From positions 1 through 62,550 of IMG/VR virus record IMGVR_UViG_3300049793_000080: a stretch of 62,550 nt of DNA. One strand, written 5' to 3'. This document shows positions 35,976 to 49,232 of this stretch, piece after piece. Within the stretch, counting starts at the first letter, position 1. The number at the start of each line of letters is the position of its first letter. Source of the DNA: a virus. The notes beneath the pieces were generated by a model, which had not been told where the DNA came from, made no database searches, and saw nothing but the letters and a program-made list of their open reading frames with translations. Both the position numbers and the translations under genes were made by a program.

Positions 35976-38900
35976 ATGGACATCACCGCGGCACGCAGCT
36001 TGCCCGAACTCGCCGGCCTGGACGACGATCAGATCGTTGACGCACTCCATCAGGCCTATTACCCCGACCTCCCCCGAGATGAAGTAGCCAAGTCGCTTGG
36101 CATCAAGCCCACGGCCGCGCCGCGCCCGGAGACGACCTGGGGCGACCGTGCGAAGGACACCGGCATCAGCTTGCTGCAAGGCGCCGTGGCGGTGCCCCAG
36201 GCGGCGGTGGGCGTTGCGGATCTGGTGACCGGCGGCGCGGCGGGCAAGCTGGCCGAGGATGTCGGGTTCCGACCGAAAGAGGCGACCGACTTCCTGGGCG
36301 AGCGCTTGAGCGACGCGCAGAAGGGCGCGAACAAGGAAGTGCAGGACGCCGAGGGCTTTTGGGGCACCTTCAAGGCCGCCGTCTCCAATCCTTCGGTGGT
36401 GTTCCAGTCGGTGGTGCAGTCGCTGCCTTCCATGGGCGCGGGCGGCGTGGTGGCGCGCGGCGTGCTGGGCGCGAGCATGACGCCGCGCCTGCTGGCCAAG
36501 CTGTCGGCCATGGCCCCCGAGGCGCGCGAAGCCGCCATCCTGGGCATGCAGACCACCGCCGGCGCCGTGGGCGAGGGCGCCGTGCAGGCCGGCAGCGCCG
36601 CCGAACAGGCGCGCACCGACAACCCGCTGGGCACGCTGGACGGCAAGGGCGCGCTGTCGGCCGTGGCCAGCGGTGTGGGCGACACCATCATCGCCCGGTT
36701 CAGCGGGCGCCTCGCCAACAAGCTGGGCATCGCGGACGCGGACACCATGCTCGCTGGCGCCGCGGTGAACCCGCGCGCGGCCAAGAGCGTGGTGAAGGCC
36801 GCGCTCGGCGGCATGGTGACCGAGGGCTTGCTCGAGGAACTGCCGCAGTCGGTGCAGGAGCAGGTGTGGCAGAACCACGCAGCCGGCCGCCCGCTCGATG
36901 AGGGCGTGAATCAAGCCGCCGTGCTGGGCATGCTGTCCGGCGCGGCGATGGGCGGCGGTGCCAACCTTCTGAACGCGGCTCGAAAGCCGAAGCCCGACGA
37001 CATCCTGAACGCGCCGGACGTCGACGCCGCGCTGCAGACCGCGCAGGACGCGCTCCTGTTGCCCCCGCCGACGATCAGCGTCACGCTGGGCGGTACCGCC
37101 GTCACGCCGGAGCAGCGCGCGGATCTGGTGCAGCAGGAAATCACGCGCCGCGCCGCCGGCATGATGGGCGGCGAGGACGTCACCGATGTGCAGGCCAAGG
37201 GCACGCCGCCGGTGGAAGTGCCTCCGACGACGCCACCCTCGACCCCCCCAGCCTTCCCGGACCCGTTCAGCGCCGCCAAGCCGGTGGACCTGGACGCGAA
37301 CGAAGCGCGCATGCACCGCGACGCCGACCGCGACGCCCAGGCGCTCAAGGAGCACGACCCGCTGACCCTGCCGCGCAAGGGTCTGCCGGAGCTGGACGCC
37401 GAGTACGGCAAGGGCGAGGGCGACACGATCCAGAAGAACGGCGCGCCGTGGCCCAGCGAAGCGGCGGCGATGCTGTCGCTCAAGATGGCCAAGAAGAAGG
37501 GCCGCGCCGTGCCGGTGGCCGGCGGCTTCATCGCGCGACCGAACAAGGAGACACCCAATGCAGCGCCCACCCCTGAAAACAAGCCTGACGGCGCTCGCGG
37601 CGCACAGCCTGCTGCAGCAGCACCGGCCACCGACGCCGCCACTGCCCAGCGACCCGACGATCAGCATGGAGGACTTCCTGCGCCCGACACGGGAATTGCA
37701 GGCGGCAGTGCGGCGGCTGTCGCGACCCAGCCCGCGCCCGGCGGGCAAGTCGTGGGCGCAGGCGACGCTGCGCGCACACCTGGAGACGGTGTACTACGGC
37801 CAGTCAATGACGCGGCTGTGGATGGAAGAGATGAACGGCCAGCCGATGGCCGAGCGAGTGGACCCGTATCCGCACCCGTGGCAGCGGGAGCAAATGACGC
37901 GGGAACAACTACTGGCGCTGCAAAAACCGGAAGTGAGCAATCACTAACCGAAGCTGGCGCGCAATGGACCCGCATGACGGAAATCGAGCGCCGCGCCGTT
38001 GCGGGCCGCACGGCAGGTAAGGCGAAGGCGCTAGATCGCATCGTCTCGCAGAAGTGGGAAGACCTACATTCCGGCTGGCAGAAATCCCTCGCGCGGGTGA
38101 TGAACACGCCCGGCGCGCCGATTGCTCCACGTGAAACGTCAGCGCCCACTTCGCACCCAACCGCCAGCGCAGGTCCGCGCGTCATCATCAATCGGCTCGG
38201 CCCTGATGGTCTAACCGACGCCGAGCGCGCGGCTGGCAAGCCGTCCTATGCCGACAAGCCCGCCGAGGTGACGAGCGAGACGGCGCGACGCGGCGATTTC
38301 AACGTCAAGAACCACCTGGGCAAGATGGAGCGCGCGACCGTGACCGAGGGCGGCACACGCGGCCGGTTCGCCGTCAAGATCGGCGGCGAGTCCATGGGCC
38401 AGTTCCAGATGGACGACCAGGGCGCGGTGAGCCGCATCGAGGCGCGCGCCAACTGGGCCGAGGATTCCGTGCGTGACGCGGCGATGCAGTTCGTCGCGCA
38501 GGAGCGCGCCAAGACGGCACCGGCCGCCGCCGAGCAGCCGCGCGACCAGGACACCGGGCAGTTCGCGGAAGCCCCGGCCGACACGCTCCCCGCTGGCGTG
38601 CGTCGCCGCGAGAAGGGTGTGGCAAACACCAAGGCGCGCATCGCAGCCGAGGCGGCCCGCGCGGCGTACTTCACGCCCGGCAACGTGGTGCGCGGCTATG
38701 GCGGCTTCGATGAGGTGCTTGCGTACAACCCGCCCACCGAGCCCGGAGGCGCATGGAGCGTGCGCGTGCACGAAGTCAAGGAAGCCACGCCCAACAACTG
38801 GGTGCGCGTGGGCCGCCCCCAGGACGCGCGACAGCACAGCACCGAGCCGGAGGAGCGCGAGCTGCGCAACGGGCCGCGCGCCCAGTTGTCGGCCCTGCCC

Positions 38901-41900
38901 GCCAGCGAAGTGCCGTACACCGTGCCGCGTGCCGATGGCAAGGTGCACCCGGATGCCGAGCCGCGCAGCAACCCGCGCGCCGCAGCCGAGCCCGCCAAGA
39001 TCGTGACCGACAAGGCCGAGATTCGCCCATACCGCCGCTCGGACGGCAGCGTGGGCTACGAGGCCGTGCCGATCCAGCCGCCGGCCGCGCCGAATGACGA
39101 ATTGATCGTTCAATCCATTCGACCCGGCTCCAAGCCGCACGTTGTCAAGGTGGAGCCTGCGCCCGCCGCTAGCACAAACAAGGTGTTCACCGACGAGATG
39201 GCCGCCGCAGCGCGCGCCCGCCTCAAGGCCAAGCTGGGCCGGCTGAATTCGCTGCTGGACCCGCAGGACATGCTCGACGGCATCACGCTGGCCGGCTACC
39301 ACGTCGAGAAGGGCGCGCGCAGCTTCGCCGCCTTCGCGCAGGCCATGCTCGCGGATCTTGGCGAGGGTGTGCGCGCCCACCTCAAGAGTTTTTACATGGG
39401 CGTGAAGTATTCGCCCGCCGCGGCCGAGTTCTCCAAGGACATGAGCAGCGCCGCGTTCGTGGAGGAGTTCGACCTGTCGCATATCGCGGCGCCGTCCGAC
39501 ACGGACACCCTTGAAACTCAGCCGCCCGCGGCAGATACTGGAGCCAATGATGGAAGCAGCAGCCCAACACTCGACGTGGATCGCGCAGGCCCGGGGCCAC
39601 TGGAAGGAGCACCTTCCGGGGATGTACGCGCGCCTGCAGGAGAGCGGAAAACTGGAGACGGCACTGGCCGAAGCAGCGACGGCGACCAGCGAGGGGATGC
39701 ACGCCCTGATGCAGCAGGGGGCAACGTGGCAGGAGGCGTGGGAGCAGGTGCGGGAACAGTACCTGTTTCCACCGGAGGAGCCGAGCAAGGAAAAGGCCCC
39801 GCCAAGCCAAGGGTACCGCGTACACCGCGAGCTGATGGCGGGCCTGGGCTCTTTGACGATGCCGGGGGAACGGGAGGAGTAAACCCGGCCCCGAACGCCG
39901 CGCCCACGCCGGCGCCGCAGTTCAAGCCGTCCGAGGACTTCACCATCGAGGATGACCTCGCGCTGGGTGACGGCGGCGAGAAAACCAAGTTCAAAAACAA
40001 CGTGGCGGCGATTCGCCTGTTGCGCGAGCTCGAAGCGGCCGACCGCATGGCGACACCCGACGAGCAGCGCACGCTCGCCCAATACGTGGGCTGGGGCGCC
40101 TTGTCCAAGGCATTCGACGCTGACCGCGCGGAATGGGCCAAGGAGCACGCCGAGCTCAAGGATCTGCTGTCGCCCGAGGAGTTCGCCGCAGCGCGGCAAT
40201 CCACCCGCTACGCGCACTACACCAGCCGCCAGATCATCCAGGACGGCGTTTATGCCGCGCTGCATCACTTCGGCTTCACCGGCGGGCGCGTGCTCGAGCC
40301 GGGCGCCGGCGTGGGCAACTTCATCGGCATGATGCCCGCCGACATGCGCAGCGCGGGCCGCATCACGGCCATCGAGCGCGAGCCCATCGCCGCCGGCATC
40401 GCCAAGAACCTGTACCCGCTGCAAAACGTGCAGCAGGCCGACTTCACCGCGTTCAAGGGCACCGATGGCTATTTCGACGCGGTGGTGGGCAACCCGCCGT
40501 TCGCCTCCGACCCGCAGACCGACACCAGCGGGCGCAAGCACCTGGGCGGCCTGACCCTGCACAACTACTTCTTCGCCAAGAGCGTGGACCTGATGCGCGA
40601 GGGCGGGATCTTGGCGCAGGTGGTGACCAACTCGTTCATGGACGCGGCCGGCGACCGGGCCCGCAAGTACATCAGCGACCGCACCAAGCTGATGGGAGCC
40701 ATCCGCCTGCCGAACAACGCATTCAGCAAGAACGCGGGCACCGAGGTGACGACCGACATCATCTTTCTGCAAAAGCGCCCGGAGGCCGAGTGGGGCAACA
40801 AGGCGACGCGCCAGGAAGCCAAGGCGTGGCTGGACGTGGTGAAGCAGACCGACCGGCGCAACGGCGGGCAGTACAACCTCAACCAGTATTTCATCGACCA
40901 CCCGGAGATGATGCTCGGCGACTTCGGCGCGCACGGCACGATGTACGGGCCCAACCAGCCGGCGCTCATCGCCCGGCCGGGGCAGGACACGCTCGCACTG
41001 CTCCGCGAGGCGGTGCAGCGCCTGCCGGGCAATGTGTTCGTGGACCGTGCGGTGCTCGGCACCGACGCGGCCATCGAGAACGCCACCAAGGCCCTGACGA
41101 ACCCGCCGGTGCAAGAGGGCGGCTTCTATGTCGAGGGCGACAAGCTGATCCAGCGCGTACCCGACATTGCCGGCGAGCCGCGCGGCCGGGAAATCAACGC
41201 CGCAACGCAGTGGACTGCCAAGACGCCGCTGGGGGAGGCGGGCTACCAGAAGATCCGCGCGCTCACGCAGATGCGCACCACGCTGCGCGGACTGCTGGCG
41301 GCCGAATTGTCCGGCGACAAGGACATGGACGCCCTGCGCACGACGCTGGGCAAGCAGTACGACGACTACACCAAGGCGCACGGCCTGCTGGGCGACCCGG
41401 GCACCGCGCGCGTCTTCGATGACGACCCGGATTTCCCGCTGCTGCTGTCCCTGGAGCACGAGTACCGGCCCGGCATCGGCATGGCCGCGGCCAAGCGCCA
41501 GGGCATCAAGCCGACCAAGAGCGCGGCGAAAAAGGCGCCGATCTTCATGCGCCGCGTGGTCGACGCGCGCAAGCCGGTGCAGAAGGTGGAGACGCCCGCC
41601 GACGCGCTGGCCGTCTCGATGGCCGAGCGCGGCAAGCTCGATACCGTCTACATCGGCCAACTGCTCGGCAAAGACCCGCAGGAGGTGTTGAAGGAGCTGA
41701 GCACCGGCGACAAGCCGCAGCTGTTCCTGGACCCGGCGACCGACGAATACGCGCTGCGCGACGCCTACCTGTCGGGCAACGTGCGCGCGAAGCTGGAGCA
41801 GGCCAAGCAGTCCGGGCTGAGCATGAACGTGCGCGAGCTGGAGAAGGTGCAGCCCGAGGACGTGGGCGCGCATGAAATCTCGGCGCGCATCGGCTCGCCG

Positions 41901-44900
41901 TGGGTGCCCACCAGCGTCTACGAGGACTTCGCCAAGGAATTGTTCGGCGAAGGCTCGACGGCCCGCGTGCACTACATGGCGCTCAATAGCTCGTACACGA
42001 TCAGCACGTCCGGCACCAACGAGGTGAACACCACCAACAAGTGGGGCACGCCGCAGTACTCCGGCCCGGAGCTGATGTCCGCGCTGCTGAACAACCGCAC
42101 CATCCGCGTGATGCACCCGAAGGTGGGCGACACGCCGGCGTCGCTGAACGTGGAGGCCACCGATATGGCCAACACGAAGGCGCAGGAAATCCGCGACCGC
42201 TTCCAGGATTGGCTCTTTGCCGAGCCGGAGCGTTCCGAGCTGCTCGTGCGCACGTACAACGACACGAACAACAACTACGTGACGCGCAACTATGACGGCT
42301 CGTGGATGACGTTTCCGGGCAAGGTGCCCAATTCCGTGTTGCCGGGCGACGGCGGCATTTCGTTTCGCCGCCACCAGCGCAACGCCATCGCGCGTATCGT
42401 GCAGGACCGCACCGCGCTGCTCGACCACGTAGTCGGCGCTGGCAAAACCTTCACCATCGTCGCCGCGGCAATGGAGCTGCGCCGCACCGGGCTGGCCAAG
42501 AAGCCGCTCGTGGCCGTGCCGAACCACCTTGTGAAGCAGTGGGCCGCCGACTTCTACCGGCTGTACCCGGGCGCCAACATCCTCACGGCCACGAAGAAGG
42601 ACTTCGAGAAGGTCAACCGCCGCCGCTTCCTTGCCAAGATCGCAACGGGCGACTGGGACGCCGTGGTGATCGCGCACAGCTCCTTCGGCTTCATCAAGCC
42701 GGGCGCGGAATTCGAGGCCGAGTTCAACGAGCGGCAGGTGAAGATGATCATGGACACCATCGCCGCGGTGCAGGACGGCGATGGTGAGAAGGCGCAAAAG
42801 AAACGCACCGTCAAGCAACTCGAGGGCATGAAGGAGCGGCTGCAAAACCGCATCAAGAGCCTGCGCGACAAGGCGATGGACGACCTGCTGGACTTCGAGC
42901 AGCTCGGCGTCGATCAACTGTTCGTTGACGAAGCCCACATGTTCAAGAACCTGATGTTCACCACGAAGATGCAGGGCGTCTCAGGGCTGGGCGATGGGTC
43001 GGGCTCGCAGCGCGCCTACGACATGTACGTGAAAAGCCAGGAGGTGCTGGAGAAGAACGGGCGCGGCCAGGGGCTGGTGTTCGCGACCGGCACGCCAGTG
43101 TCCAACTCGCTGGGCGAGAAGTACCACATGATGCGGTACCTCATGCCCCGGCAGATGGAAGAACTGGGCTTCCAGTCGTTCGACGCCTGGGCCAACACCT
43201 TCGCCGCCGTGCAGCAGGTGTGGATGCAGAAATTCAGCGGCGACGGCTACAAGCCGCAAAACCGCATGAGCGATTTCGTGAACGTGCACGAGCTGCTGAA
43301 AATGTTCGATCAGGTGGCCGACACGGTGACGCTGGACGACATCAAGAAGGCGTACAAGGAGGAGAACAACGGCGAGGAGTTCCCGATCCCGCGCGTGAAG
43401 ACCGGGCGGCGCCAGCCGGTCAGCCTGGAGAAGTCGGCCGCGCAGATCGCCTACATGGAGCACATTGCCGCGCGCGCCAAGATCCTCGAAGCGCGCAGGG
43501 GCCCGCCGCGCAAGGGTGATGACAACGCGCTGGTGATCATGGGCGACGCACGCAAGGCGGCGATGGACATTCGCCTGATCAGCCCGGCCAAGCTGCGCAA
43601 GGCCATCGGCTATGACGTGGACGGCCGCGACCCGGGCGGGCGCATCGACCGCAGCGCGCAGGAAATCCACCAGCGCTATCAGCAGTGGAACCACGTGAAG
43701 GGCACGCAGCTGGTGTTCGCGGACCTGGGCACGCCCGTCGAGCACGCGGCCACCGAGTTGAAGGAGTACGAGGCGCTGATGGAGCGCATCAACGCCGCGA
43801 CCGATGATGTTCGCCTGCGGGCCGAGCTTGGGGCGGAAGACGCACTGGTGATCGTGAATGATGCCGAGGACGCGCAAGCCGACATCGACGTGAAGGGCCA
43901 GGACTGGCTCGACGGCATCGAGGCGGCGCAACGCGGGTTCAGCATCTACGACGACTTGAAGGCGGCGCTGATCGAGCGCGGCATGCCCGAGGACCACATC
44001 GCGTTCATCCACGACTACGGCAACGATGAACGCAAGGCGACGCTGTTTCGCAAGGTGAACGCGGGCGACATCCGCGTGCTGATCGGCTCCACCGCGAAGA
44101 TGGGCGCTGGCACCAACGTGCAGGAGCGCATCGTGGCCGAGCACCACCTGGACGTGCCGTGGCGCCCGAGCGACGTGGAGCAGCGCGAGGGCCGCATCGA
44201 GCGCCAGGGCAATAGCCTGCTGTGGACGCCGCAGAACCCGAACGGCATCAAGGACTTCGAGGTGGAAATCTTGGCCTACGTGACCAAGGACACCCTGGAC
44301 ATGCGCATGTGGCAGATCCAGGAGGTGAAGCTCAAGATGATTCACCAGCTGCGCACGCGGCAGATTTCGCGCGACATCGACAACGCTTTCGAGGACATGG
44401 AAATGTCGGCCGGCGAGATGCAGGCCGCGGCGACCGGCAACATGGACCTGTTGCGCGAGATTCAGGCGCGCAGCGATATCAAGAAGCTGGAGCAGAAAAA
44501 GCGCAGCTTCGACGCCCAGCGCTCGGACCTCATCAACCGCAAGAAGCGCGCCGCCGAAAAGCTCGCGCAGCTGCCCGCGCAAATCAAGGGAGCCGAGGTG
44601 TTGGCCGAGGGCTCGCGGGAGTACCGCAAGGCACTGGAGGACAACGCCGAGAGCTTCAAGGTCACCATCGACGGCAAGGACTTCACCGACCGCCATCTGG
44701 CCAGCGCCTACCTGCTGGACAAGATCGACGGCAAGATTTACGTGCGCACGGTGGAAAAGGACGGCAAGAAGCTGCGCGAGGAAATCAGCGCCGAGCAGTG
44801 GGCCGCGCTGCCCACCGGCGACGAGCGTGCGTTCTATGACCCGAAGGCCGCGCCGCTGGACCTGACCATGAACGGCGATCTGTTCACCGCCCGCGCAAAG

Positions 44901-47900
44901 CTGCAGGAGGCGTGGAGCAACGTCGCGGGCGACCGCGAGCCCATCGTGTGGGAGTACCAGGGCAAGACATTCAACCGGCGCACCGCGCTGGCCGTGGCGC
45001 AGCGCCAAGCCGTGGCCGACGCCGTGGCAGACGAGAAGGAAGTGGACCTGGGAAAAGTCGGCCCGTTCGCGGTGACGGCCGAAGGGCAGACCGGCAAGTG
45101 GGGCAAGTTCCTGGACGTGGTGATGACGTACAAGGGCCGCAAGATCGAGGGCGACATCGGCGTGCCCGAGGGCGACGTCTCCACGCAACTGGCCGAGCGG
45201 ATGGCGTCTTGGGCCAGCCGCAAAGCCGAGCACGCGGCCGATGACCTGCAATACCTGAAAGGCGACCTCGAGCGCGCGCAAAAGCAGAAGGCCGAGCTCG
45301 ACGCGGCCGACGATGTGGGCGACGTGTGGCCCGAGCAGAGCAAGCTGGAGGAAGCGCGAAACCGCCACAAGGCCATCCTCGCGCGTCTGGGCGGCCAGAA
45401 GGACGCGCCGCCAGCCACCGGCGACGAGCCGGCGTTCGGGCAGGGCGCAGCCACCGGCGGCATGAGCCCCGCGCTCGCGCAGCACGCGGCCGACACGGTG
45501 GCATCCGTGTGGGACAACGCGCCGCAGATCGTGGCGCTGCCCTCCATCGCGCGCGCACCGCAGAAGGTGCAGGACGACGCACGCCGGCGCATGGAGCGCG
45601 GCGGCGGCAAGCCCAAGGCCGTCTTCTATGACGGCACGGTGTACCTGTTCGCTGACGCGCTGGCCAGCCCGGCCGAGGCGGTGGAGTACACCTATCACGA
45701 AGTCCTGGGTCACTTCGGCATGCACGGGCACCTTGGCCCCGAGTTGGACAAGGAATTGAAGGCCGTCGCCACGCTGCGCAAGGAAGACATCAGCGCGATG
45801 TACGAGCGCACCGGCAAGGAGCGCAGCGCCGCGATGGATCTGCGCATGGCCGAGGAGGTGGTGGCCTACATGGCGCAGACCAAGCCCGAGCTGTCGCTGG
45901 TGCGCCGCGTCATCGCTGCCATCAAGAACTTCCTGCGCGACCACGTGCCGGGCTTCGGCTCGCTGAACATGAGCGACGCGGACATCATCCAGAAATTCGT
46001 ATTACCTGCTCGCCAGTTCGTGGAGGGCGCCCCAACGGACCCGAATGGCGGCGGCGAGTTCGATCCTGCGTTCGGTCAAGCGCGAGGCTTGAATTCACGA
46101 GAAATCCAGGTCAATGGAAAGTGGAGGCCCATCGAGACGGCCGGCGGCGAACTGATCGCGCCCACGTTCCATGGGCAAAGCGAATTTTGGAAAAAGCACG
46201 CCGACGCCTTCGCGCTGGATGACAAGGGCCGGCCGAAAGCAACGCCGGCAGAAATCAAGGCGCTGATGGGCGACAACCCTGACGATGCGATGTTCGCCCA
46301 GGGTGCGCCGCTGAACGATCCGCGCGCCTTGTGGGGACGCGCCAAGCAAAGCCTTGCGGACATGAGCAGCGCGCCGGGCACGATGCACTGGTGGAATAAA
46401 AGCATTGGCACGGAATATCACCTTGCGCAGAAGTACCCGGCGTTCAAGGCCGTGTTCGACCGCGTGCAGGACTTCATCAACGACTCCAGCCTGTACGCCA
46501 ACGAGGCGGCCGATCTAGCCCGCACCATCCTGCCGAAACTAGAGGGCTGGCGCGATGTGGTCCCGAAGCTGCTGGGCGGGAGCGGCAAGTCGCCTATTTC
46601 TGCCGCGTTCAATCGGCAGATCCAGGCGCCCATCAACGAGGGGACGCTGATCTGGACGCGCGGGGAGGACGGCAAGCCCGTGCGAGTAGATGAGTTGGAG
46701 AAGGCTGCCGACAAGATGAGCGCCGACCAGAAGGCGCAGGCCATGTTGCGCGCGGGCAAGCTGCCTGAGAGCGTGTTGAAAATGTGGCGCGGCCTTCCGC
46801 TGGATCAGTACCAGCAGGCCGTCTCCACTGCCTACAAGAACCGGATGTTGACCCCGGGCATCGTGTGGACGGACGCGGAGTTGCGCGAGAAATTCGGACT
46901 CGGCGCCGCACAGATCGCCCTGTACCGCGAGTTCCGCGCCGCGGTGGACCGCAGCATCACGCAGCTCGCCGTGAGCGACTTGGTGCGCTTTGTCGGGCAG
47001 GATGGCGACTTCATCCGCGATCAGGTGCTGGCTGCGCCGGATGTGATGACGGCCGCCAAGATGCTCGTGCAGCAGATCGACCAGCTTATCGTGGACAACC
47101 CCGAGCGGCAGGACGTTCTCAACGACACGGCCGCCAAGGTCAAGTTGAAGGCCGACAAGGCGCATGAACTGATCCAGCGCGGGTATGCCCCGCTGTCTCG
47201 CTTCGGGCACTACACGATCACCGTTCGGGCAAAGAGCGATGACGGCGAGCCCGGCGAGGTGCTGTACTTTGGCATGTACGAGAGCCGCCCGGAAGCCGCG
47301 AAGGCTGCGCGGCAGCTCGCCGCGGAAGAAGACTTCCAAGGCGCAACGCTGGTGCGCGGCACGATCAGCCACGAGCAATACAAACTGTTCGCCGGCGTGA
47401 ACCCCGACACCATTGAGCTGTTCGGAGAAATGCTCGGCCTGGAGGGCGCGGGCAATGCAGCATCCGATCAGGCGTTCCAGCAGTTCTTGAAGTCGGCGCG
47501 CAGCAACCGCAGCACGATGAAGCGGATGATTCATCGCAAGGGCACGGCGGGATTCTCCGAGGACGTTCCGCGCGTGCTGGCGTCCTTCCTTTACAGCAAC
47601 GCACGCCAAGCCAGCCGGAACCTGCACTCTCTGGAAATCGACCGCATGGGCAACGAGATTGCGCAGGCAGAGGGCGAGTTGAAGGATCATGCCGTCAAGC
47701 TGATCGACTACGTGAAGAACCCCGTGCAGGAGGCGCATCAGTTGCGTGGACTGCTATTCGCGCAGTTTCTTGGCGGGAGCATCGCATCCGCCATGGTCAA
47801 CATGAGCCAGCCCTTCATGATGACGCTGCCCTACCTGTCGCAGTTCGGTGCACGCGAGGCCGTCTCGAATTTCAAGTGGGCGTTGCTTCACGGATGGAAG

Positions 47901-49232
47901 GACACCACTGGCGACCCGACCTTGGACGCGGCGATCAAGCGGCGCGTGGAGGACGGCACCATCGCGCCCCATGAAGTTCATCAACTCCTTGCGCAATCGC
48001 TGGGCAAGGCCGAACTGAAATCAGGCGACGGCACGCTCACCGGCGATGCGGCGGCACAGGCGAATAACGCGCTCGCGCGGCTGCAGCTCGGATGGGGAAA
48101 GTTCTTCTCGACCGCCGAGCTTTTCAATCGGCGCGTCACCTACGTGGCCGCCTACCGCCTCGCCAAAGAAAAGAAGATGGCCGACCCGGACGCCTTTGCC
48201 AAGAAGGCGGTGGACGAGAGCCAGGGCGTTTACAACAAGGGCAACAAGCCTGTATGGGCCCGCGGCGCGGTGGGCAGTGTCGCGATGACGTTCAAGCAGT
48301 ACAGCATCGCGTACTTGGAGTTCGTCGCGCGCATGTGGACCGCAGGAGAGCCGGGAAGCCCGGAGCGAGCGGCCGGTCAGCGCGCGGTGTACTTCGCTGC
48401 CGCCATGCTGCTGATGATGGGCGGCGCCGGCGGCCTGCCGTTTGAAGACGATGTGGCCGATGTGGTGGACGGCATCATGCAACGCCTGGGCTACAACTGG
48501 AACACGAAGCAAAAGCGCCAGGAGATGCTGGAGAAGGCATTCGGTCGCGGCTTCGGGCACGTGCTGGAGAAGGGTGTTTCTGGTCTGCCGGGCGTGCCGA
48601 TTGATGTCGCCGGCCGCTTCGGTATGGGCAACCTCATCCCCGCCACCGGGCTGCTGCAAAAGAAGGCCGATCACACCAGCGACGTTCTGGAAATCGGAGG
48701 CCCGGCCGCGAGCCTCGCCAAGCGATTCTTCCAGGCCAGCAACCTCGCGGCGGAAGGCCGAATCGTGGACGCCGGCTTGCTGGCCTCGCCGGTCGCCGCG
48801 TCCAACATCGCCAAGGCCATCGACATGGCATCGAGCGGTATCTACAAGGACAGTGCGGGCAAGAAGGTGATGGACGTCGACGGCTGGGATGCCATGTCGA
48901 AACTGATCGGGTTCCAGCCTTCTGCCGTGGCGCGCGTCCAAGATGCCGACCGATCCGCGCAGGTGATGGTGGAGCAGGTGAAGATGCGCGAACGGGAAAT
49001 CTCGCAGCAGTGGGCGCAGGCGCTTGCTGACGGGGATCGGGATGGTGCGACCAAGGCGCGCGAAGCCATCGCGGCGTGGAATGCCAAGAACGAGGACACC
49101 CCCATAAAAATCAAACTTGGAGATGTGCTGCGCCGCGCGAAAAACATGCGAATGGATCGCGCGACGCGCATCGAGAAAAGTGCGCCAAGCGAAGTTCGCG
49201 GAACCGTTCGGGAAATGCTGCGCGAACCGTAG
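35976..49232 (+). CDS. Giant polyvalent virion protein (DarB-like methylase/helicase, zincin, PLxRFG)
   Basis: The single 4,418-residue ORF makes up over a fifth of the genome. Visible modules in order are as follows. The N terminus resembles structural ejection proteins, with GMMGG at about 395. Low-complexity linkers lie at about 520-660 and 1190-1305. An N6-adenine methylase is marked by VLEPGAGVGNF (about 1437) and NPPF (about 1506). A SNF2/superfamily 2 helicase has Walker A GAGKT (about 2153), DEAH in VDEAHMFKN (about 2315) and QREGRIERQG (about 2733). A zincin-like HEVLGH lies at about 3240 and the PLSRFG signature at about 3738; a helical C-terminal region follows. Phage P1 DarB, with methylase and helicase domains, protects incoming DNA from type I restriction, and Bcep22-type phages carry a virion-borne counterpart of about 4,600 residues. 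Ejection with DNA, entry and restriction protection are the likely roles. Two ORFs are nested in its +1 frame. Confidence 0.9.
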   Translation: MDITAARSLPELAGLDDDQIVDALHQAYYPDLPRDEVAKSLGIKPTAAPRPETTWGDRAKDTGISLLQGAVAVPQAAVGVADLVTGGAAGKLAEDVGFRPKEATDFLGERLSDAQKGANKEVQDAEGFWGTFKAAVSNPSVVFQSVVQSLPSMGAGGVVARGVLGASMTPRLLAKLSAMAPEAREAAILGMQTTAGAVGEGAVQAGSAAEQARTDNPLGTLDGKGALSAVASGVGDTIIARFSGRLANKLGIADADTMLAGAAVNPRAAKSVVKAALGGMVTEGLLEELPQSVQEQVWQNHAAGRPLDEGVNQAAVLGMLSGAAMGGGANLLNAARKPKPDDILNAPDVDAALQTAQDALLLPPPTISVTLGGTAVTPEQRADLVQQEITRRAAGMMGGEDVTDVQAKGTPPVEVPPTTPPSTPPAFPDPFSAAKPVDLDANEARMHRDADRDAQALKEHDPLTLPRKGLPELDAEYGKGEGDTIQKNGAPWPSEAAAMLSLKMAKKKGRAVPVAGGFIARPNKETPNAAPTPENKPDGARGAQPAAAAPATDAATAQRPDDQHGGLPAPDTGIAGGSAAAVATQPAPGGQVVGAGDAARTPGDGVLRPVNDAAVDGRDERPADGRASGPVSAPVAAGANDAGTTTGAAKTGSEQSLTEAGAQWTRMTEIERRAVAGRTAGKAKALDRIVSQKWEDLHSGWQKSLARVMNTPGAPIAPRETSAPTSHPTASAGPRVIINRLGPDGLTDAERAAGKPSYADKPAEVTSETARRGDFNVKNHLGKMERATVTEGGTRGRFAVKIGGESMGQFQMDDQGAVSRIEARANWAEDSVRDAAMQFVAQERAKTAPAAAEQPRDQDTGQFAEAPADTLPAGVRRREKGVANTKARIAAEAARAAYFTPGNVVRGYGGFDEVLAYNPPTEPGGAWSVRVHEVKEATPNNWVRVGRPQDARQHSTEPEERELRNGPRAQLSALPASEVPYTVPRADGKVHPDAEPRSNPRAAAEPAKIVTDKAEIRPYRRSDGSVGYEAVPIQPPAAPNDELIVQSIRPGSKPHVVKVEPAPAASTNKVFTDEMAAAARARLKAKLGRLNSLLDPQDMLDGITLAGYHVEKGARSFAAFAQAMLADLGEGVRAHLKSFYMGVKYSPAAAEFSKDMSSAAFVEEFDLSHIAAPSDTDTLETQPPAADTGANDGSSSPTLDVDRAGPGPLEGAPSGDVRAPAGERKTGDGTGRSSDGDQRGDARPDAAGGNVAGGVGAGAGTVPVSTGGAEQGKGPAKPRVPRTPRADGGPGLFDDAGGTGGVNPAPNAAPTPAPQFKPSEDFTIEDDLALGDGGEKTKFKNNVAAIRLLRELEAADRMATPDEQRTLAQYVGWGALSKAFDADRAEWAKEHAELKDLLSPEEFAAARQSTRYAHYTSRQIIQDGVYAALHHFGFTGGRVLEPGAGVGNFIGMMPADMRSAGRITAIEREPIAAGIAKNLYPLQNVQQADFTAFKGTDGYFDAVVGNPPFASDPQTDTSGRKHLGGLTLHNYFFAKSVDLMREGGILAQVVTNSFMDAAGDRARKYISDRTKLMGAIRLPNNAFSKNAGTEVTTDIIFLQKRPEAEWGNKATRQEAKAWLDVVKQTDRRNGGQYNLNQYFIDHPEMMLGDFGAHGTMYGPNQPALIARPGQDTLALLREAVQRLPGNVFVDRAVLGTDAAIENATKALTNPPVQEGGFYVEGDKLIQRVPDIAGEPRGREINAATQWTAKTPLGEAGYQKIRALTQMRTTLRGLLAAELSGDKDMDALRTTLGKQYDDYTKAHGLLGDPGTARVFDDDPDFPLLLSLEHEYRPGIGMAAAKRQGIKPTKSAAKKAPIFMRRVVDARKPVQKVETPADALAVSMAERGKLDTVYIGQLLGKDPQEVLKELSTGDKPQLFLDPATDEYALRDAYLSGNVRAKLEQAKQSGLSMNVRELEKVQPEDVGAHEISARIGSPWVPTSVYEDFAKELFGEGSTARVHYMALNSSYTISTSGTNEVNTTNKWGTPQYSGPELMSALLNNRTIRVMHPKVGDTPASLNVEATDMANTKAQEIRDRFQDWLFAEPERSELLVRTYNDTNNNYVTRNYDGSWMTFPGKVPNSVLPGDGGISFRRHQRNAIARIVQDRTALLDHVVGAGKTFTIVAAAMELRRTGLAKKPLVAVPNHLVKQWAADFYRLYPGANILTATKKDFEKVNRRRFLAKIATGDWDAVVIAHSSFGFIKPGAEFEAEFNERQVKMIMDTIAAVQDGDGEKAQKKRTVKQLEGMKERLQNRIKSLRDKAMDDLLDFEQLGVDQLFVDEAHMFKNLMFTTKMQGVSGLGDGSGSQRAYDMYVKSQEVLEKNGRGQGLVFATGTPVSNSLGEKYHMMRYLMPRQMEELGFQSFDAWANTFAAVQQVWMQKFSGDGYKPQNRMSDFVNVHELLKMFDQVADTVTLDDIKKAYKEENNGEEFPIPRVKTGRRQPVSLEKSAAQIAYMEHIAARAKILEARRGPPRKGDDNALVIMGDARKAAMDIRLISPAKLRKAIGYDVDGRDPGGRIDRSAQEIHQRYQQWNHVKGTQLVFADLGTPVEHAATELKEYEALMERINAATDDVRLRAELGAEDALVIVNDAEDAQADIDVKGQDWLDGIEAAQRGFSIYDDLKAALIERGMPEDHIAFIHDYGNDERKATLFRKVNAGDIRVLIGSTAKMGAGTNVQERIVAEHHLDVPWRPSDVEQREGRIERQGNSLLWTPQNPNGIKDFEVEILAYVTKDTLDMRMWQIQEVKLKMIHQLRTRQISRDIDNAFEDMEMSAGEMQAAATGNMDLLREIQARSDIKKLEQKKRSFDAQRSDLINRKKRAAEKLAQLPAQIKGAEVLAEGSREYRKALEDNAESFKVTIDGKDFTDRHLASAYLLDKIDGKIYVRTVEKDGKKLREEISAEQWAALPTGDERAFYDPKAAPLDLTMNGDLFTARAKLQEAWSNVAGDREPIVWEYQGKTFNRRTALAVAQRQAVADAVADEKEVDLGKVGPFAVTAEGQTGKWGKFLDVVMTYKGRKIEGDIGVPEGDVSTQLAERMASWASRKAEHAADDLQYLKGDLERAQKQKAELDAADDVGDVWPEQSKLEEARNRHKAILARLGGQKDAPPATGDEPAFGQGAATGGMSPALAQHAADTVASVWDNAPQIVALPSIARAPQKVQDDARRRMERGGGKPKAVFYDGTVYLFADALASPAEAVEYTYHEVLGHFGMHGHLGPELDKELKAVATLRKEDISAMYERTGKERSAAMDLRMAEEVVAYMAQTKPELSLVRRVIAAIKNFLRDHVPGFGSLNMSDADIIQKFVLPARQFVEGAPTDPNGGGEFDPAFGQARGLNSREIQVNGKWRPIETAGGELIAPTFHGQSEFWKKHADAFALDDKGRPKATPAEIKALMGDNPDDAMFAQGAPLNDPRALWGRAKQSLADMSSAPGTMHWWNKSIGTEYHLAQKYPAFKAVFDRVQDFINDSSLYANEAADLARTILPKLEGWRDVVPKLLGGSGKSPISAAFNRQIQAPINEGTLIWTRGEDGKPVRVDELEKAADKMSADQKAQAMLRAGKLPESVLKMWRGLPLDQYQQAVSTAYKNRMLTPGIVWTDAELREKFGLGAAQIALYREFRAAVDRSITQLAVSDLVRFVGQDGDFIRDQVLAAPDVMTAAKMLVQQIDQLIVDNPERQDVLNDTAAKVKLKADKAHELIQRGYAPLSRFGHYTITVRAKSDDGEPGEVLYFGMYESRPEAAKAARQLAAEEDFQGATLVRGTISHEQYKLFAGVNPDTIELFGEMLGLEGAGNAASDQAFQQFLKSARSNRSTMKRMIHRKGTAGFSEDVPRVLASFLYSNARQASRNLHSLEIDRMGNEIAQAEGELKDHAVKLIDYVKNPVQEAHQLRGLLFAQFLGGSIASAMVNMSQPFMMTLPYLSQFGAREAVSNFKWALLHGWKDTTGDPTLDAAIKRRVEDGTIAPHEVHQLLAQSLGKAELKSGDGTLTGDAAAQANNALARLQLGWGKFFSTAELFNRRVTYVAAYRLAKEKKMADPDAFAKKAVDESQGVYNKGNKPVWARGAVGSVAMTFKQYSIAYLEFVARMWTAGEPGSPERAAGQRAVYFAAAMLLMMGGAGGLPFEDDVADVVDGIMQRLGYNWNTKQKRQEMLEKAFGRGFGHVLEKGVSGLPGVPIDVAGRFGMGNLIPATGLLQKKADHTSDVLEIGGPAASLAKRFFQASNLAAEGRIVDAGLLASPVAASNIAKAIDMASSGIYKDSAGKKVMDVDGWDAMSKLIGFQPSAVARVQDADRSAQVMVEQVKMREREISQQWAQALADGDRDGATKAREAIAAWNAKNEDTPIKIKLGDVLRRAKNMRMDRATRIEKSAPSEVRGTVREMLREP
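37558..37947 (+). CDS. Nested ORF A in the +1 frame of the giant gene
   Basis: This 129-codon ORF lies entirely within the giant gene, whose own frame here encodes a disordered Ala/Gly/Asp/Pro linker. An ideal Shine-Dalgarno AAGGAG (37545-37550) lies 7 bases before ATG 37558. From Met 37 onward the product looks like a real protein (MEDFLRPTRELQAAVRRLSR, TLRAHLETVYYGQSMTRLWM, then PYPHPWQREQMTREQLLALQ), with aromatic residues and mostly G/C third bases in this frame. The protein is not recognised. Independent expression is likely but unproven. Confidence 0.6.
   Translation: MQRPPLKTSLTALAAHSLLQQHRPPTPPLPSDPTISMEDFLRPTRELQAAVRRLSRPSPRPAGKSWAQATLRAHLETVYYGQSMTRLWMEEMNGQPMAERVDPYPHPWQREQMTREQLLALQKPEVSNH
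39547..39882 (+). CDS. Nested ORF B in the +1 frame of the giant gene
   Basis: This 111-codon ORF is in the same +1 frame as ORF A and again lies over a disordered linker of the giant protein. CTGGAG (39538-39543) is 6 bases before the second ATG (39550). The product looks well ordered (HSTWIAQARGHWKEHLPGMY, ARLQESGKLETALAEAATAT, GATWQEAWEQVREQYLFPPE) and is helical, with many Trp and charged residues. That is unlike a random shadow frame, which in this genome gives Arg/Pro/Ala runs. I recall similar small phage/bacterial hypothetical proteins ending in REQYLxPPE, but no function. Confidence 0.65.
   Translation: MMEAAAQHSTWIAQARGHWKEHLPGMYARLQESGKLETALAEAATATSEGMHALMQQGATWQEAWEQVREQYLFPPEEPSKEKAPPSQGYRVHRELMAGLGSLTMPGEREE

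Follow-up and report, generated by a model that had tools for sequence, protein, structure and literature searches.

The window analysed here is a viral contig of 62,550 nucleotides (62.5 kb), and its largest gene, an open reading frame on the plus strand at 35976-49232 that takes up about one fifth of the genome, encodes a giant protein of 4418 aa. Judging from the open reading frame itself and from its relatives, which carry the annotation 'DarB-like antirestriction', the product is a DarB-like polyvalent protein; a transglycosylase is present in the corresponding N-terminal part of relatives, and the DNA of the giant gene has no near-identical match among phages. Two conserved parts of the giant protein frame the site of interest. 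The first is a segment designated U (plus strand, 39183-39503), recognised by tblastn across loci in the frame shared with module D, and the second is the start of module D itself, the conserved methylase-helicase part (plus strand, 39921-41420). Module D is homologous to annotated DarB-like genes in 89 phage records, including darB of P1 and P7, and it is by this homology that the host gene belongs with the DarB-type polyvalent proteins and their LPD36-methylase-SNF2 dyad, which was set out together with its injection by Iyer et al. 2017 (PMC5512222).

Between U and D lies a small gene, B (plus strand, 39550-39882), which is contained wholly within the giant open reading frame in the +1 frame relative to it. 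B is preceded by a Shine-Dalgarno (SD)-like GGAG at 39540-39543, 6 nt 5' of the ATG, has a possible alternative start at a second in-frame ATG (39547), encodes a TnpV-like helical protein of 110 aa and ends with a TAA at 39880-39882. Read in the giant frame, the same stretch (plus strand, 39550-39879) is a stop-free, G/A/D/P/S-rich sequence, and B lies over the low-complexity linker found between residues ~1176 and ~1315 of the giant protein. An earlier note on this DNA had described both the ribosome-binding motif with its start and the coincidence with a linker, and on these points the description is confirmed.

Across relatives the B product is helical and about 100-110 aa long, with H17, W18, P23, L35 and A63 among its invariant residues, and its AlphaFold2 model has five helices with a mean pLDDT of 80.5. 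Among solved structures there is no significant fold match (Foldseek against the PDB, best E=0.75), the matches to B by sequence in the PDB being designed helical repeats, and the single significant viral match in Foldseek is Q8W6J4, which we take to be a protein of phage PBC5. PADLOC matched B to none of its defence families.

Homologues and their nesting

A tblastn search with B returned 19 phage records, in each of which the match lies under a giant gene, and in all eight fetched giant genes that are annotated and intact it is +1 to the giant coding sequence. Scans of IMG/VR and GTDB, with E-values relative to the candidate sets, contributed 73 and 23 further loci. Of 107 loci, a set that includes the window itself and in which several members are duplicate records or close relatives, 98 have B nested in the +1 frame of a long host reading frame. 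Outside this pattern fall PBC5 (two records), a phage copy that has degenerated (L029) and bacterial-contig copies that have no intact giant gene (L085, L088, L090, L091, L106 and L107). Klebsiella phages LASTA and SopranoGao and Erwinia phage PEp14 are among the laboratory phages that have B in nested form. Nearly all B loci keep a start codon preceded at SD distance by a motif resembling GGAG, GAGG or AGGA, the stop is conserved as well, and in the phage records examined B is without annotation. A protein search for free-standing relatives, proposed in the earlier note, finds them in bacterial contigs and transposon-type elements. Plasmids gave no match to B, and among 398 genomes of one bacterial phylum it occurs in the centre genome only and is thus rare in that phylum.

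Sinorhizobium phage PBC5 is of particular interest in relation to programmed frameshifting, according to which the upstream half of the giant protein would have B as its C-terminal tail. In this phage (L006:7600-8900) the giant gene is broken in two, U and B sharing a frame that differs from the frame of D, and gp22 is annotated as ending in B; phrog_938 likewise has B near its C-terminus. Against such a reading, an in-frame stop stands just 5' of the B ATG in several of the fetched phage giant genes, and 1-6 codons before the B start in many relatives, the start and its SD-like motif are conserved, and free-standing copies open with a start codon of their own. Frameshifting is ruled out for most relatives by the stops and is scarcely probable overall; PBC5 is an odd record, and its frame split is consistent with an indel or with a mistake in an old entry.

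Two other records depart from the common pattern in ways of their own. In Pseudomonas phage Itty13 (L004:2978-15314) the giant gene is unannotated and three large coding sequences are annotated on the opposite strand. In Pseudidiomarina sediminum (L106:5477-6265) the B domain is fused to a hydrophobic C-terminal part, and the fusion gene adjoins AAA and methyltransferase-HNH genes reminiscent of restriction systems.

Selection on the two frames

The high GC content and codon bias of the giant gene could by themselves leave +1 frames open, in which case B would be no gene. When synonymous codons were shuffled in the window alone with the giant peptide held fixed, the B frame stayed open in 58% of trials, so that an open +1 frame in this one sequence is unremarkable and its significance comes from comparison only. 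Numerous other out-of-frame open reading frames are present in the window, and one of them, ORF A (taken as window 37558-37947, in the same +1 frame as B), had been regarded as a second, independent nested gene. That view was not upheld: ORF A matches nothing in Pfam, PHROG or NCBIfam, neither phages nor the fetched loci contain a homologue of it, and it is probably a chance open frame. Since ORF A lacks homologues, linkers in general are not gene hosts. The broader proposal that linkers persist in order to host hidden genes therefore holds for the B site, where the giant frame is unconstrained yet free of stops, and not beyond it; on the sequences compared, only the linker site just before the methylase-helicase module appears to host a gene.

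For the comparison, loci were paired by the identity of the giant protein downstream, their overlaps were aligned at the DNA level, and scores were taken from 37 disjoint pairs. Over the overlap the nested frame has an amino-acid identity of 0.69, as against 0.56 in both the giant frame and the third frame (nested vs giant, p=1.5e-11; giant vs third, p=0.92), from which it follows that amino-acid constraint proper to the giant frame is not detectable over B. The most variable codon position within the overlap is position 3 of the nested frame, and downstream it is position 3 of the giant frame, as in any gene. Openness is another matter. Shuffling the synonymous codons of B predicts 279 giant-frame stops over B in 77 loci and none is seen, although these loci had been kept as nested, which makes giant-frame openness part of their selection; loci recruited by module D only show the same pattern. 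At the B wobble position a T before codons starting with AA, AG or GA occurs in 0 of 2436 cases, vs 7.4% before other codons.

B thus combines a start of its own with a ribosome-binding-site-like motif, purifying selection specific to the nested frame, and a host frame that is kept open, the features by which nested overlapping genes are recognised. Both frames are, as far as comparison of sequences can tell, real, with B conserved in sequence and the giant frame conserved in openness only.

The site before module D in other loci

An independent view of the site comes from 80 loci recruited with module D only, in a manner blind to B. At 58 of the 80 the stretch 5' of D contains a match to B or TnpV (E<1e-3), always in the +1 frame, and 78 of the 80 have an SD-started +1 open reading frame of at least 65 aa ending at the site, as compared with a null of 6.3% of windows elsewhere in the same genes. 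The same search in the +2 frame succeeds at 3 of the 80 loci, and contig L238 has no SD-started +1 open reading frame at the site. Such +1 frames occur also in contigs of 36-48% GC, a range in which a long chance open frame is unlikely. Together with the frame-specific conservation, the kept start and SD motif and the free-standing homologues, these results refute the reading of B as a chance open frame, which is now hardly credible. They bear out the suggestion that B is a genuine hidden gene; homologues outside giant-gene overlaps and frame-specific conservation among relatives, whose joint absence the earlier note would have held against it, were both looked for and found. We put the probability that B is a real, conserved gene nested in a DarB-like giant at roughly 0.93, a figure that applies to its existence and not to its function.

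The D-recruited loci that lack a match to B mostly have a second small family, A6, at the same place. Its members share the motif MQxLYxPxxYPPExRxxL...EIANRWMLGWPKRVKxLI and are nested +1 before D (L203:4028-4348, L207:4142-4423, L217:4208-4483 and L116:5699-5971). A6 has no PHROG match, and homology with B is not established with confidence (hhalign, probability 15%). Lessievirus phages have at this site an unannotated +1 open reading frame of 107 aa with a strong SD (L120:5573-5896, BcepIL02), which is kept in BcepMigl, CSP3, DC1 and JC1 and is 76-100% conserved over 74 residues. In elements from the gut, true TnpV genes are nested +1 in long host open reading frames at 13 loci, mostly with D within reach, and over these genes 88 host-frame stops are expected and none is seen. 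Examples in D-bearing giants, with an SD of the GAAAGGAG type, include L118:3770-4177, L129:4995-5345, L131:5822-6160 and L137:5001-5351, among others. The remaining TnpV genes that were fetched are free-standing, with the single exception of L130, where no D is nearby. The nesting of true TnpV in the D-bearing giants of gut elements points to two classes of TnpV gene, one nested and the other free. The arrangement recurs in nearly all of the related giant anti-restriction genes that were examined, those of proteobacterial phages as well as those of gut elements.

The proximity of the nested gene to D admits a further explanation, namely that translation of B is a device in which termination couples to an internal start and yields a shorter, D-only protein. 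In most phages the end of B lies within ~80 nt of D, which speaks for such coupling. A giant-frame ATG with an SD near the B stop, however, is found at 0 of 78 loci vs 17% of control windows (the scarcity of ATG inside the overlap being at least partly a passive effect of B codons), and the amino-acid conservation of B would be left unexplained. A coupling device of this kind is very unlikely.

TnpV likeness, function and origin

TnpV (Pfam PF14198), a small transposon-encoded protein, is similar to B in length and shares with it the core Y..L...G.L...L. PF14198 is matched at E<0.1 by 49 of 70 B proteins, with a best E of 1e-8, and the B region of a Fibrobacter locus (L103) scores 38.8 bits, above the curated 27-bit cut-off. 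The window protein scores 19.1-19.4 bits, below this cut-off, and is for that reason not filed as TnpV, and the profile-profile link between B and TnpV is weak (probability 34%, E 4e-4). The B family is best described from these matches as TnpV-like, most members resembling PF14198 weakly and some well. A difference from the TnpV of the literature is that the latter is encoded by free-standing genes in transposons, whereas B in the window is nested in a giant gene.

Ribosomes initiating at the SD of B on the giant mRNA would produce B in cis, beside the nascent D module, and B may work with D as a small helical partner (a chaperone, an inhibitor or a packaging factor) by which the methylase-helicase is kept under control until ejection. 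This is the favoured reading of its function, put forward tentatively as a possibility. A competing explanation, a rival only to this functional part, accepts that B is real and nested and holds that it is independent of D, being a transposon-type factor or an anti-defence protein placed by history. A part of TnpV in excision is no more than postulated in the literature, from its homology with lambda Xis (PMC3158075), and free TnpV genes exist without D. On the other side, nested copies go together with D in phages and gut elements alike, unlike mobile cargo, and independence from D seems slightly less probable than a role with it. DarB of P1 is without B, which indicates that B is not required for every D and that D is able to work alone.

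The arrangement of the frames offers an account of the linker. In the +1 configuration each B codon begins at the second base of a giant codon, and the composition of B makes T rare there. Because T is seldom found at that base, the giant frame over B is rich in Gly, Ala, Arg, Glu, Asp, Pro and Ser and poor in hydrophobic residues (0.11 vs 0.29 in D), and its stops can be avoided through the choice of the B wobble base. The low-complexity linker may therefore be an out-of-frame shadow of B, as opposed to B having been overprinted on an old domain. Some D genes that have no long upstream part start shortly 5' of B and read across it (L103, L167 and L193), which suggests that the giant may derive from extension or fusion over an older small gene. 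In one plausible history a methylase-helicase gene had an old small gene immediately 5' of it, and the giant arose when an in-frame extension or a fusion bridged that small gene. This direction of events, while unproven, seems likelier than the insertion of small genes into the giant open reading frame that had been proposed earlier.

It is a real possibility, if short of being likely, that the arrangement is general: polyvalent methylase-helicase genes would almost universally hide a +1 gene directly before the methylase module, its product would be an obligatory small partner controlling the injected anti-restriction enzyme, and the linker would be solely the out-of-frame read-through of that gene. 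If this is true, few nested genes known from prokaryotic mobile elements would be as widely conserved. B itself adds an unannotated protein to many phage genomes and mobile elements, within a giant gene linked to the protection of injected DNA. The overlap also offers a clean example from nature of sequence conservation in one frame and openness only in the other, as expected if a growing giant swallowed an old small gene, and the reason for a disordered linker before the methylase module in these giants becomes testable. Annotation rules against overlapping genes are seen here to conceal conserved genes.

The main text of Iyer et al. 2017 (PMC5512222) mentions no TnpV, overlap or alternative-frame gene, and an earlier mention elsewhere is possible. 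A parallel is provided by the Rz/Rz1 spanins of phages. Rz1 is a lipoprotein that works with Rz in lysis. Embedded spanins, reported for Bcep22-like phages, resemble B in that a larger phage gene fully contains a small gene in a different frame, although the proteins are unrelated. In streptococcal integrative and conjugative elements, snf2 genes are sites at which mobilisable elements with tnpV insert (PMC9815147), an observation that may be linked to the nesting of TnpV in SNF2-type giants.
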